NCBI GenBank assembly: GCA_029866215.1
Contig: JARWZU010000075.1
Span: forward strand, 1-64,000
DNA from: Akkermansiaceae bacterium
GTDB taxonomy: Bacteria; Verrucomicrobiota; Verrucomicrobiia; Verrucomicrobiales; Akkermansiaceae
DNA length: 64,000 nucleotides
Reading direction: 5' to 3'
Shown here: piece by piece, positions 1 to 53,892 of the stretch
How positions within the stretch are numbered: position 1 is the first letter of the stretch
How the letters are laid out: every line of letters begins with the position of its first letter
Position numbers and translations under genes: made by a program
Notes under the pieces: generated by a model
Told to the model about the DNA's origin: nothing
The model's input: the letters and a program-made list of their open reading frames with translations, nothing else
The model's database searches: none

Positions 1-76
1 GGCTTTCCGGTGTTGATGAGTTCAACGGCTTGGGCTTTGAACTCTGGGGTGTAGCGTTTGCGTGGTTTGGGATTCA
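1..76 (-). CDS. IS3-family transposase OrfA, N-terminal part (runs off left edge)
   Basis: The reading frame starts with ATG at 76 and runs off the left edge, so only about 25 residues are visible. It opens MNPKPRKRYTPEFKAQAVEL, the typical start of the small helix-turn-helix protein (OrfA) of IS3-family insertion sequences, which binds the element ends and is usually fused to the OrfB integrase by programmed frameshift. A candidate terminal repeat lies just upstream at 99-123, so this is probably the left part of an element whose body lies outside the window. Whether the element is intact cannot be seen. Confidence 0.75.
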
Positions 77-98
77 TCTGGGCTGATTATGGAGGTGG

Positions 99-123
99 TG
101 GTCCAAAAATCTAGCTCACCTCA
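99..123 (-). repeat. Candidate terminal inverted repeat of the IS3-type element
   Basis: Read on the minus strand the stretch begins TGAGGTGAGCTAG and ends TTTTTGGACC, and lies 23 bp before the transposase ATG. IS3-family ends often begin with TG/TGA and carry a T-rich block followed by GGACC. The partner end and any target duplication are outside the window, so this is inferred from position and composition. Confidence 0.4.
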
Positions 124-186
124 GACGGATTCCGCTGCTCCATAGAGAAGAGGGGACAAGAATGTCCCCTCTTCCTATTATTGAGA

Positions 187-927
187 TCAGGCGGGTGGGG
201 TCAGGGGGCTGTCTGCGGGTTTTTTCGGGTCTTTTTCCTTGGCCTCACGGACGGGGGCGCGCTCGATGTGGGAGGCGCTTTGCCAGGCACGGAGCTTCTC
301 AGGGGCGCGGCGGAAGGGGTTTTGCATGACGGCGTCCAGACGGGTGACGACGCTCTGGATCTGGCCGAGGACGACATCGATTTCCTTGGTGCTGAGGACG
401 CCTTGGAAGTTGTCATGATGTTTGTCCGTGTTTCGCTCATCGATGGCGTCACGATCCTCGCGGAGGTCTTCGACGAAGTCGGCAGGTAGGGCGAAGGCGA
501 CGAACTTGGCGCGGAGGGCGGCCTTGGCGGCTTTTTCCGCTGGGGTGTCACCGCCGTCTGCGACGGGGGCAGCGTTATCTTCTAGCAGGGTGAGGAGGGC
601 ATCCGCATGGGTGGTGCAGGTTTTTTCTGAATAGTCCGCTGGGAACCGGAAGGGAGCGGCGGCGAATCCGGGCTCGTCGAGGGCGATGGAGCGCGCGGTG
701 CGGGCGATGTCCTTGAAATCGAGGAACAGGGCATCGAGCAGGGCTTGCTTGCCGACGGGGTCGCGGAGCTGGCCGACTTGGGCGACGGGGAGCTTGGCCA
801 CGAGTGGATCAAGCTCGCCGAAAAGTTGGGCAGCCTTGGGCAGGGCGGCGATGGTTTACTGATGGAGGAGGCCGAAGTTTTTCACGCGGAGGGCGCGGTC
901 GGCACGGCGGATGTCACGGTCATTCAT
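187..927 (-). pseudogene. MNDRD-family hypothetical protein, interrupted by an in-frame TAA
   Basis: From ATG at 927 the frame reads MNDRDIRRADRALRVKNFG, then LLHQ and a TAA at 856-858. It continues open in the same frame for 223 more codons to the stop at 187-189. Removing the stop gives a protein of about 246 residues. I recognise this opening and the Pro/Lys/Thr-rich tail from a hypothetical family common in Verrucomicrobiota and Planctomycetes; its function is not known to me. The downstream part has a GTG at 801 that could allow a shortened product. Possible readings are a real nonsense mutation, stop read-through or a sequencing error. A degenerate repeat array lies directly upstream and an IS end directly downstream. 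Confidence 0.6.
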
Positions 928-1096
928 AGGGTGGGGTGGTATTGGGGTTAGTTTGTCGTTAGGGGATGGGAACGGCTTTTCGCCGATCACGGAGCTAACG
1001 CCTCCAAATTGCGGGGGGAAAGGGAAGCCACAAAGCTGGCGAAGGATCAATTTCCACAAGTGGCTGGAGGTAGATGATTTACGCTGGGGCGGCGTG

Positions 1097-1414
1097 CAGT
1101 TTCACACGCACCTAGGGTGAATTTACACTTACCTAGGGCCGTTTTGTGCAAACCTAGAGGCGCATTTACACGCACCTTGGGCCGTTCTGTACGAACCTTG
1201 GCATCAACTCGCACGGACCTTGGGCCGTTCTGCACGGAGGTAGAGCGGTTCTGCACTCACTTGTGGCGGGGCTGCCACGACCTGGGGGAGGACTCGCACG
1301 CACCTTGAGGCTTTTTCGCATGCACCTTGGCACGTTCTGCAAGCACCTTAAGGCCCGCTGCCATCACCTTCTAACAGACTGCGCTCACCTTGGGCGAGGC
1401 TGTCATGACCGCGC
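1097..1414. repeat. Degenerate tandem array, 21-bp period (array 1)
   Basis: About 15 consecutive units can be laid out with a spacing of 21 bp (one of 22 and one of 23). The best kept part of each unit is the end, a variant of cacgcaccttgg, usually preceded by gccgttctg. Unit boundaries fall near 1118, 1139, 1160, 1181, 1202, 1224, 1245, 1266, 1287, 1308, 1331, 1352, 1373 and 1394. Units differ from each other at many positions. The short reading frames here merely repeat every seven residues and I do not call them genes. The array fills most of the gap between tRNA-Thr and the interrupted MNDRD gene. I see no gene in the rest of that gap (928-1096 and 1415-1550). Confidence 0.8.
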
Positions 1415-1550
1415 TTGGGGGTGGGAGAGGGCGCAGACCGCGTGGCATCGCCGGTGCGGATGAAACGAGTGAATCATTGACTGCCCAAATACCTCAAAAA
1501 ACACATCTTCGCCAAACATTGGTGTGGACCCGGGATGGTGGGGGAAGTGG

Positions 1551-37938: not shown

Positions 37939-38127
37939 ACACGGCTTCCGTTACGCGATGTAAAACAACTTTTACATCATGTTCGGGTGCTTGTGCGCGA
38001 TGTAAAGGTACCCGTACATCATGTTCGGGTGCTTGTGCGCGATGTAAAACTGCCCGTGCACGATGTTCGGGTGCTTGTGCGCGATGTAAAATTGCCCGTG
38101 CACGATGTACAGGCACCCGTGCACAAC
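37939..38127. repeat. Tandem array, 21-bp period with 42-bp dimer (array 2)
   Basis: Nine units of exactly 21 bp start at 37939, 37960, 37981, 38002, 38023, 38044, 38065, 38086 and 38107. Two unit types alternate from 37960: one starting gtaaaa/gtaaag and ending in gtgcacgat or gtacatcat, and one starting gttcgggtgc and ending gtgcgcgat. The three copies of the second type (37981, 38023, 38065) are identical, so a 42-bp dimer was amplified recently. Partial units may continue to about 38150. Short reading frames cross it on both strands but only repeat every seven residues. The rest of the gap to 38316 shows no gene. Confidence 0.88.
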
Positions 38128-38316
38128 GGGACGGAACCCCGGTGCACGAGACATGCAGAGGTAAATCCACCGCCACGCGTGGATTAACCATCAACGAGTT
38201 GCACCTGAAATAGGTTGAGAGCCATCTCGCCGAGCCTCCGCTGCCCGTGCCCGCGCCAGCCCCATCCGCTCAAACCACCCGCATCCTAGCTGCGGATTCT
38301 AGGATGATCCGCCTCC

Positions 38317-52123: not shown

Positions 52124-52367
52124 CGCAGAAGACCATAAACTTCCACCCGCATTGCGCAATGCCTGCACTCTCCCAGCACGGTGCCATCGAATCGACATTC
52201 ATTTGACCGGTCCATGTCCTGAGGCCTCAAAAACCACACTTCTGGCGACTTCGCCTCAGAGGTTAAAAGCAATCACCCCACCATGACCGCACCACGCCAT
52301 GAATGCGTCGAGGGCGCGTCTGCACCCCAGATCCAACCCTTGGCCAACTCCCCAAAATTCTTTGTTT

Positions 52368-52420
52368 AAAATTCAAGTTTCCAGACAAACTGAAGACCAC
52401 CCTGCAGCTAAAGAGGATTT
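52368..52420. repeat. Diverged direct repeat, copy A (partner at 53245-53297)
   Basis: 53 bp shared with 53245-53297 at an offset of 877 bp and about ten differences. On the minus strand it reads NPL, a TAG, then LQGGLQFVWKLEF, matching NPL, TAG, LQGGLQFIRELEF of copy B, so both are scraps of one gene family. Confidence 0.7.
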
Positions 52421-52539
52421 CTGCCTATCCCTCAGGATCTTCCAGCAAGCGGTTAGGAAGATCCCGTGTGCCGTGCGTGACGCGTTCGATACGAAGGGTA
52501 TCGCTTTCCAGGTAAAAGAGCAGGTGGCAGTCAAAAGGT

Positions 52540-52811
52540 CTTTTTACCTGAATGCTCCGAATGTGAGTGAGTTCGGGGAACTGGAGGAAATTTCAGTTGT
52601 TCGGCTATTCCGAACAACTGCCACGGACGGCAAGACCTACGAGGTTTCCCATTACAATCTGGACATGGTGCTAGCTCTCGGTTTCCGCGTGCGTAGCCCC
52701 ATGGCGGTGCGCTTCCGCCAGGGGGCGGCGGACAAGCTCAAGGAATACATCACCAAGGGCTTCGTGCTCGATGACGATCGCTCGAGAAAGGCTGGAAGGG
52801 ACCGAATTTAG
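52540..52811 (+). pseudogene. RhuM-family protein fragment
   Basis: A frame stays open from 52299, but recognisable RhuM sequence begins at about 52540: NVSEFGELEEISVVRLFRTT, ATDGKTYEVSHYNLDMVLAL, GFRVRSPMAVRFRQGA and LKEYITKGFVLDDDR. Intact RhuM proteins have about 330 residues and begin with a helix-turn-helix-like part; the beginning and the Fic-like C-terminal part are absent here. RhuM genes travel on genomic islands and their function is unclear. The fragment is probably not functional. A 21-bp array starts 19 bp after the stop. Confidence 0.7.
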
Positions 52812-52829
52812 ATAAGTCCTTGAACATCA

Positions 52830-53039
52830 ATCTCTCGCTCCGACACGAGAGCGTCTCGACTCCCAGCGAGAGCGTCTCGCTGAGACACGAGGAGTTCTCG
52901 CTGGGACACGAAAGCTTCTCGCTTGAGGCAGAGAGCGTCTCGCTGGCGGCGGTGGGAGTTCTGCTCCGAGCGGTGGGGGTTTTGCTGGCGGCAGTGGAGG
53001 TTTTGCTGTGGCAAGCGCGGGTTCTGCTCGGAGCAGTGG
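52830..53039. repeat. Degenerate tandem array, 21-bp period (array 3)
   Basis: Ten units of 21 bp start at 52830, 52851, 52872, 52893, 52914, 52935, 52956, 52977, 52998 and 53019. The early units carry gcgtctcgctgagacacga; later units drift to gttctgct/gttttgctgg followed by cggcggtgg. The progression along the array is gradual. Reading frames on both strands simply repeat seven residues (e.g. ESVSLRH). Together with the RhuM fragment, the gene scraps and the CRISPR relic this fills the gap from 52.8 to 53.9 kb. Confidence 0.85.
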
Positions 53040-53134
53040 TGGCAGTTTCATGAGAAGAGCGACTCGCGCAAAGGCGCAGATCCGCAAAGTTTCAAGCGAG
53101 AGAGGTCGAGACGATCCTACTTTTCGAGGCTCAC

Positions 53135-53418: not shown

Positions 53419-53586
53419 CCGAACATTTCACGGGGGGCACGGATTGAAACATGGTTTGAGGGCAAACCGTTACAAATTGTAACGGCTTGCCCCCTTCACG
53501 GGGGGCGAGGGATGAAACTAAGGTTAGTCCTGCGGCGAGGGGCTTGGCGGTGTCGCCCCTCCTTAGGGGGAGGAATCGATGGACAG
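53419..53586 (+). CRISPR. Relict CRISPR array, about three degenerate type I-C-like repeats
   Basis: Three repeat-like blocks end at 53450, 53518 and about 53585, a spacing of 68 and about 67 bp, as expected for 32-base repeats with 34-36-base spacers. The first keeps the right half (cacggggggcacggattgaa, ending in ac). The second is nearly whole (gcccccttcacggggggc, then gagggatgaaac), with the usual short stem. The third keeps the left half (gtcgcccctccttagggg, then gaggaatcgatgg). They resemble the type I-C consensus GTCGCCCC-TTCACGGGG-CGTGGATTGAAAC. No cas gene lies in the window. The interval between the first two repeats contains a perfect palindrome. Confidence 0.5.
53460..53492. repeat. 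Near-perfect inverted repeat between CRISPR-like repeats
   Basis: The core ccgttacaaattgtaacgg (53467-53485) is a perfect inverted repeat around one central base; outer arms gggcaa and ttgccc extend it to 33 bp with one mismatch pair. It overlaps the left edge of the second CRISPR-like repeat. It could be an operator or a hairpin former; as a CRISPR spacer it would be unusual. Confidence 0.6.
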
Positions 53587-53892
53587 GAACGGGAAAGTGG
53601 CTGACAGCGACGGGTCTGGGGCTGACAGCTCCTGGGAATTGACTGACAGCTCTTGGGATTTCCCAAGGGGGGCGGCGGGTGGTGGAAGGATGAGCTTTAG
53701 GCTAGCGTTTTCAACTACCCGAGACCCCCACTGGGACGCGCGGACAGTGAATTCGACCCGCAATGACGGCACCACCATGGATGCGGCGAGGGTGCCCCAT
53801 CCGACACGCGTAGGCGCGTGTGCTCCCCTGATGCACGACCCGCCGAACTTCCTGACTGGCTTGCCAGTGGCGTGCCTCTCAGACGCGCCCAA

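Follow-up and report, generated by a model that had tools for sequence, protein, structure and literature searches.

An array of tandem repeats with a period of 21 or 22 bp was found at most 750 bp upstream of 22 MNDRD genes, out of a non-redundant set of 25 in which the start is intact, and since both the period and the unit sequence track the encoded protein, the array and the gene are concluded to be inherited as one unit. That the two would form one unit if other MNDRD genes also had an upstream array had been proposed in a preliminary description of the locus which prompted the test, and this proposal is well supported by the linkage and by the co-divergence of array and protein; with the prompting locus left out, the count is 21 out of 24. 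The locus in question lies in the window, i.e. the whole stretch of 64,000 nucleotides analyzed here, which makes up the first 64 kb of contig C65 in a draft genome of 3.03 Mb and 88 contigs. We suggest, tentatively and with more doubt than belief, that these loci represent an undescribed class of two-part units in one order, apparently the Verrucomicrobiales, in which a protein lacking known relatives co-evolves with an upstream array of two-turn repeats, the period (21 or 22) being kept for long and the unit sequence drifting, where the array can break free as a minisatellite, and which possibly acts as a switch or capture module for defense genes. No description of such a unit was found in the open-licence PMC literature, whose scope leaves out subscription papers and preprints.

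Members of the MNDRD family were sought among 240 genomes of the order using a single protein as the query and among 387 using an alignment, and further among 388 genomes of the phylum, in the family f4 and in the contigs of named genomes. Matches were obtained in 22 of the 387 genomes by the alignment search, were confined to the window's own family in the phylum search, and amounted to four loci when the named genome contigs were searched with the single protein. Because the named relatives are found in Verrucomicrobiaceae and Akkermansiaceae genome records, the order was taken to be Verrucomicrobiales. Loci were counted if the start of the protein was present together with at least 500 bp of upstream sequence, and L032, being the same as L167, was counted once. 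The top upstream period was exactly 21 in nine loci and 22 in 13. The arrays are spacerless and consist of 5 to 16 units, and the gene starts 60–485 bp later and is read away from the array. One of the loci counted as positive, L017, reached 0.48 as compared to a shuffle maximum of 0.44, with a repeat that is visible by eye. Among random 750-bp windows from four genomes and two further contig sets, 0–3.3% had such a period. In the downstream flanks, which served as a control, 0.50 at period 21 or 22 was reached by none of the first 13 loci, and in a second set of loci by L156 and the N-truncated L163. The predicted presence of an upstream array at other MNDRD genes was thus borne out in the order with three exceptions (L019, L025 and L154), in which no array was detectable. 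Upstream arrays were also absent from the 5'-truncated gene copies L163, L170, L171 and L033.

The co-inheritance was assessed on a tree of 24 MNDRD proteins, from which the partly read L030 was left out. On this tree, which was built quickly and has several weakly supported forks as well as a very long L028 branch, the array period needs two changes, as compared to 3–9 changes in 1000 label shuffles, none of which gave as few. Within one period, the similarity between unit consensuses drops with protein distance (Mantel rho -0.39, reached in 0 of 500 permutations). Furthermore, paralogues in the same genome differ in period, i.e. 21 for L016 and 22 for L006 in G107, and 21 for L024 and 22 for L018 in G052, and the period therefore follows the gene and not the relatedness of the hosts. 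A weak pattern runs through the 22-bp units, with a z of 6.2 that is partly owing to shared ancestry, the 21-bp arrays have no significant common motif (z 2.0), and the units are not palindromic. Tandem repeats in bacteria are usually taken for noise or typing markers; here, the length of the repeat is passed on along with a protein family in many species, raising the question of whether MNDRD reads a ruler of exactly two helical turns.

The genome holding the window is otherwise rich in 21-bp arrays. In 0.76 Mb, which were scanned for a census that also draws on whole-genome searches with single arrays, 27 regions at period 21 and three at period 22 were identified at the chosen cut-off, where shuffles give 0. 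Most other periods had 0–5 regions, the exceptions being 36 (eight regions), 66 and 69 (six each), and 42 and 63, which are multiples of 21 and partly represent the same arrays. Of the period-21 regions, a few lie in coding sequence, and several unrelated families are found among the 21-bp arrays, of which those without MNDRD are common. This abundance would be expected if the arrays were neutral, hitchhiking minisatellites, sharing with MNDRD a genomic address only. Such a reading is nevertheless strongly disfavored, and we consider it very improbable, given the gene-specific linkage, the agreement of period and unit sequence with the protein tree, and the near absence of such arrays from samples of other genomes.

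The array that belongs to the prompting locus, array 1 (family A), consists of about 16 tandem 21-bp units at positions of about 1087–1430 on the minus strand, with the unit consensus CACGCACCTTGGGCCGTTCTG. In the orientation of MNDRD, the array lies on the 5' side of the gene. Period scans gave 21 as the top period of the region, standing out over 1082–1408, and the self-identity at this period was 57% over the best 84 bp, with a mean of 0.42 and a maximum of 0.45 in shuffles. Its edges were derived from an alignment of nine copies in the genome. The array, which had been described at 1097–1414 with about 15 units, is consequently real and slightly wider. One 22-bp and one 23-bp unit noted at the time had been read as tolerance of indels; 22-bp steps were seen among the 21-bp steps, and the accompanying idea that a reading frame is unlikely gains support from the many sister arrays built of 22-bp units. 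Array 1 is non-coding, and a coding array was ruled out because some MNDRD-linked arrays mix 21 and 22 steps. A CRISPR array was also ruled out, as CRISPRs combine identical repeats with unique spacers, whereas the units of array 1 are contiguous. The only Rfam matches near the array were a tRNA and, below the threshold, an antisense match to this tRNA, and a blastn search of a plasmid collection gave no match.

The MNDRD gene of the window (187–927, minus strand) spans 246 codons and was delimited by translation and by its homologues in the order. It was rightly described as interrupted, with a single in-frame TAA at codon 24 (856–858). A 5' leader without any terminator-like site extends from the start codon to the array element (928–1015, minus strand). 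Directly 3' of the stop codon is a perfect 12-bp stem with a 4-nt loop (147–174, strand not assigned), followed by a REP-like palindromic motif, ACGGATTCCGCTGCTCCATA, at 121–145 on the plus strand, which was identified by a pattern search of the genome and the genus. The start of the contig (1–120) resembles the end of an insertion sequence and cuts the REP-like motif beside MNDRD. In the 25 bp 5' of the start codon, most of the 22 array-linked loci are A/C-rich with no evident Shine-Dalgarno sequence.

The proteins of the family are about 230–250 aa long and all-helical in prediction. No match was found in Pfam, NCBIfam, PADLOC, PHROGs or PDB sequences, and no relative in viral contigs; judged by its sequence, MNDRD is an undescribed protein family. 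The AlphaFold2 model has helices throughout but is poor (pLDDT 62, pTM 0.41, from a four-row alignment), and a Foldseek comparison to the PDB, meaningless at this quality, returned chance helical matches only. A DNA-binding fold was not recognizable in this poor model.

The reading that we favor, at slightly less than even confidence, is that array 1 and its MNDRD gene constitute a decayed member of the two-part unit, where the array would carry DNA sites bound by MNDRD or a partner. Each repeat unit would be one recognition site, and the period of two helical turns would display many such sites on one face of the helix. Binding by MNDRD or a partner may be cooperative, and the binding protein would most simply be MNDRD itself. 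The bound array could then control the expression of MNDRD, and perhaps that of the genes behind it, in an arrangement that by analogy would resemble operator, iteron or centromere arrays that are followed by the gene of the protein by which they are bound. In the window's genome, the gene has been broken and the array block, along with its leader and tail, has dispersed as a non-autonomous minisatellite element.

What separates this DNA-binding array from a structured RNA is first of all that the period is fixed at two helical turns (21 or 22 bp) while the unit sequence drifts, and the constancy of the unit length under changing sequence is the reason for favoring the former. The same preference is based on the mixed 21 and 22 steps of some arrays, on an array RNA that on average shows no excess folding as compared to shuffles (sense mean z -0.6, with the exceptions L156 at z -7.9 and L161 at z -4.2), and on array and gene being separated by a terminator-like site in just one out of 22 loci (0.5 expected). 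There are also observations against the DNA sites, namely that the units are non-palindromic, whereas a symmetric dimer would favor palindromes, that the 21-bp arrays have no significant motif in common, that three MNDRD genes have no detectable array, and that 21-bp arrays without MNDRD are common in this genome.

The RNA counterpart would be a type III-like toxin-antitoxin system, in which transcription of the array would yield repeat RNAs that hold the protein encoded just downstream in check by binding to it. The gross anatomy is the same, i.e. tandem repeats upstream of one gene, and some MNDRD genes adjoin defense-type genes. We still regard this plan as distinctly unlikely, and a structured RNA antitoxin as disfavored, in view of the folding and terminator results given above, the lack of a match between MNDRD and any known family, and the fixed unit length, which suggests the geometry of a DNA helix rather than RNA. 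Known type III antitoxin repeats are, moreover, 34–45 nt long. In described type III loci, the antitoxin is an RNA encoded by tandem repeats that precede the toxin gene, and these repeats vary widely from locus to locus in both sequence and length (PMC4627078). The MNDRD loci thus share with ToxIN, CptIN and TenpIN the position of the repeats directly upstream of one gene and their divergence between loci, but differ in the shorter, fixed unit of 21 or 22, the missing homology to known families, the general lack of a terminator between repeats and gene, and the average lack of excess RNA structure.

Returning to the DNA-binding array, its closest parallels in plan are the iteron and partition arrays of plasmids, which are followed by the gene of the protein that binds them, e.g. 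stbDR/StbA in R388 and parC/ParR. The direct repeats in helical register (21 or 22 bp, two turns) 5' of a gene are shared. MNDRD arrays are, unlike these, situated on chromosomal contigs, and MNDRD is a putative binding protein that co-diverges with its array. At the sensitivity used, MNDRD did not resemble any of the known Rep, ParR or StbA families. The gene-linked form therefore resembles both type III loci and iteron/partition arrays in plan, and in sequence corresponds to none of them.

A DNA search with window positions 1082–1432 identified nine copies of array 1 in the genome, 84–93% identical and two of them cut by contig ends. These copies constitute a dispersed minisatellite element of about 340–420 bp, and the array has spread alone to at least eight other places, as MNDRD is found beside the window copy only and no second MNDRD gene was found in the genome. 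The earlier suggestion of a mobile unit consequently holds in part: the array has dispersed here without the gene, whereas the MNDRD array is essentially single-copy in the four other genomes probed (G107, G132, G674 and G706). For seven copies besides that of the window, the alignment spans most or the full length of the array and shows an identical succession of diverged units. What distinguishes one unit from the next is common to the nine copies, position by position, and therefore older than the dispersal. The copies differ by single-unit gains only, with one extra 21-bp unit each in L120 and L121. The leader of the element (1016–1086, minus strand) is shared by four copies (blastn; contigs C86, C10, C42 and C38), and the tail is common to most copies but altered in that of the window. 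The REP-like motif has five copies in the genome, each flanking an array-A copy or, in the window, the far side of MNDRD, and is absent elsewhere in the 0.76 Mb sampled. In L123, window segments 124–154 and 1016–1232 are joined with a short overlap. This junction fits an internal deletion of a larger element consisting of motif, MNDRD, leader and array, and it also fits an insertion beside a preferred neighbor.

This dispersal is the basis for an alternative in which the locus is a mobile element, where MNDRD would aid the spread of the array and the array-only copies would be non-autonomous deletion derivatives of a unit composed of REP end, MNDRD, leader and array. It would account for the nine copies with their shared leader and tail, for the position of all five REP-like motifs, for the apparent deletion in L123, and for the copies L117, L119 and L120 beside or within another repeat family. 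We consider it unlikely, as the MNDRD array is essentially single-copy in the other genomes, MNDRD has no recombinase or transposase signature, and the arrays of family B have spread in the same genome with no MNDRD gene. Neither a target duplication nor an empty site was demonstrated upon inspection of the copies. Other species of the genus have the REP-like motif with no array next to it, and it may therefore be just a preferred insertion neighbor. Under the favored two-part reading, a class of dispersed minisatellites would be traced to array blocks that started out in a gene-array unit. In the left flanks of L120, L119 and L117, the array-A copies adjoin or are embedded in what remains of array family E (GTCGATTACGGAGGCTTAAGT), which looks as though repeats accumulate on top of each other. 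A truncated array-A copy without MNDRD is located about 330 bp 5' of hsdM at L122 1483–1687.

The dispersed form is comparable to BrickBuilt of Porphyromonas gingivalis, which has spacerless 23-nt tandem repeats with a non-repeat leader and tail in 19 intergenic copies, a varying number of units, IS5-like terminal inverted repeats and no linked protein gene (PMC4596501). Array A is similar in its spacerless repeats of about two turns with leader and tail, in its dispersal and in its variable unit number. The unit is, however, 21 bp (21 or 22 in the sister arrays) and of a different sequence, the host belongs to a different phylum, and related arrays are tied to MNDRD genes, which have no counterpart in BrickBuilt. 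Terminal inverted repeats of the BrickBuilt kind were not found across window positions 1–1500.

The genes downstream of MNDRD point to yet another alternative, i.e. a promoter-proximal regulatory cassette, mainly of defense genes, with MNDRD as the regulator. In eight loci, the next downstream gene on the same strand is of a defense type: an HmaA helicase (L031, 1710 bits), a ThsB TIR protein (L018), a C5 DNA methylase (L021), a type III-like restriction helicase with an AAA ATPase (L032), PIN_3 (L155), PDC-M30A (L156), PDC-S60 (L158) and Schlafen AlbA_2 (L161). Other loci have unrelated neighbors. Ten of the approximately 20 loci with downstream sequence were scored, picked for a same-strand gene and several of them for a defense-like look, and 7 of these 10 selected neighbors matched PADLOC as compared to 4 of 20 random genes, which matched weakly, at E up to 1e-6. 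Because the loci were selected and random genes also match PADLOC, the enrichment is suggestive only. We regard the neighborhood as a lead, and the cassette as quite improbable. Should the neighborhood be confirmed, the unit would offer a new way into the switching or assembly of defense islands.

A number of the other 21-bp arrays in this genome also have conspicuous surroundings. The family B array (21/42 bp) at 37940–38200 of the window has 22 matches in about 16 places in the genome, several of them at contig ends; it is dispersed without any MNDRD gene, and none is found near the window copy. At 52779–53072, a 21-bp array starts where a truncated RhuM-family gene (Pfam Virulence_RhuM, 52299–52808) ends, and remnants of type I restriction may surround it. 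Array family F (TGTCAGTCAATTCCCAGGCGC) is common to window positions 53546–53701 and L070 744–1092, where it is situated 3' of an HsdR gene. A short 21-bp array is also found at L070 4839–4983, within the 3' portion of a Schlafen AlbA_2 gene whose neighborhood is of the restriction-modification type. Lastly, the 21-bp array at L064 12201–12398 lies in frame within an alanyl-tRNA synthetase gene (1013 aa), the catalytic-domain match of which is split in two; a unit length that is a multiple of three could allow arrays to enter genes without a frameshift.
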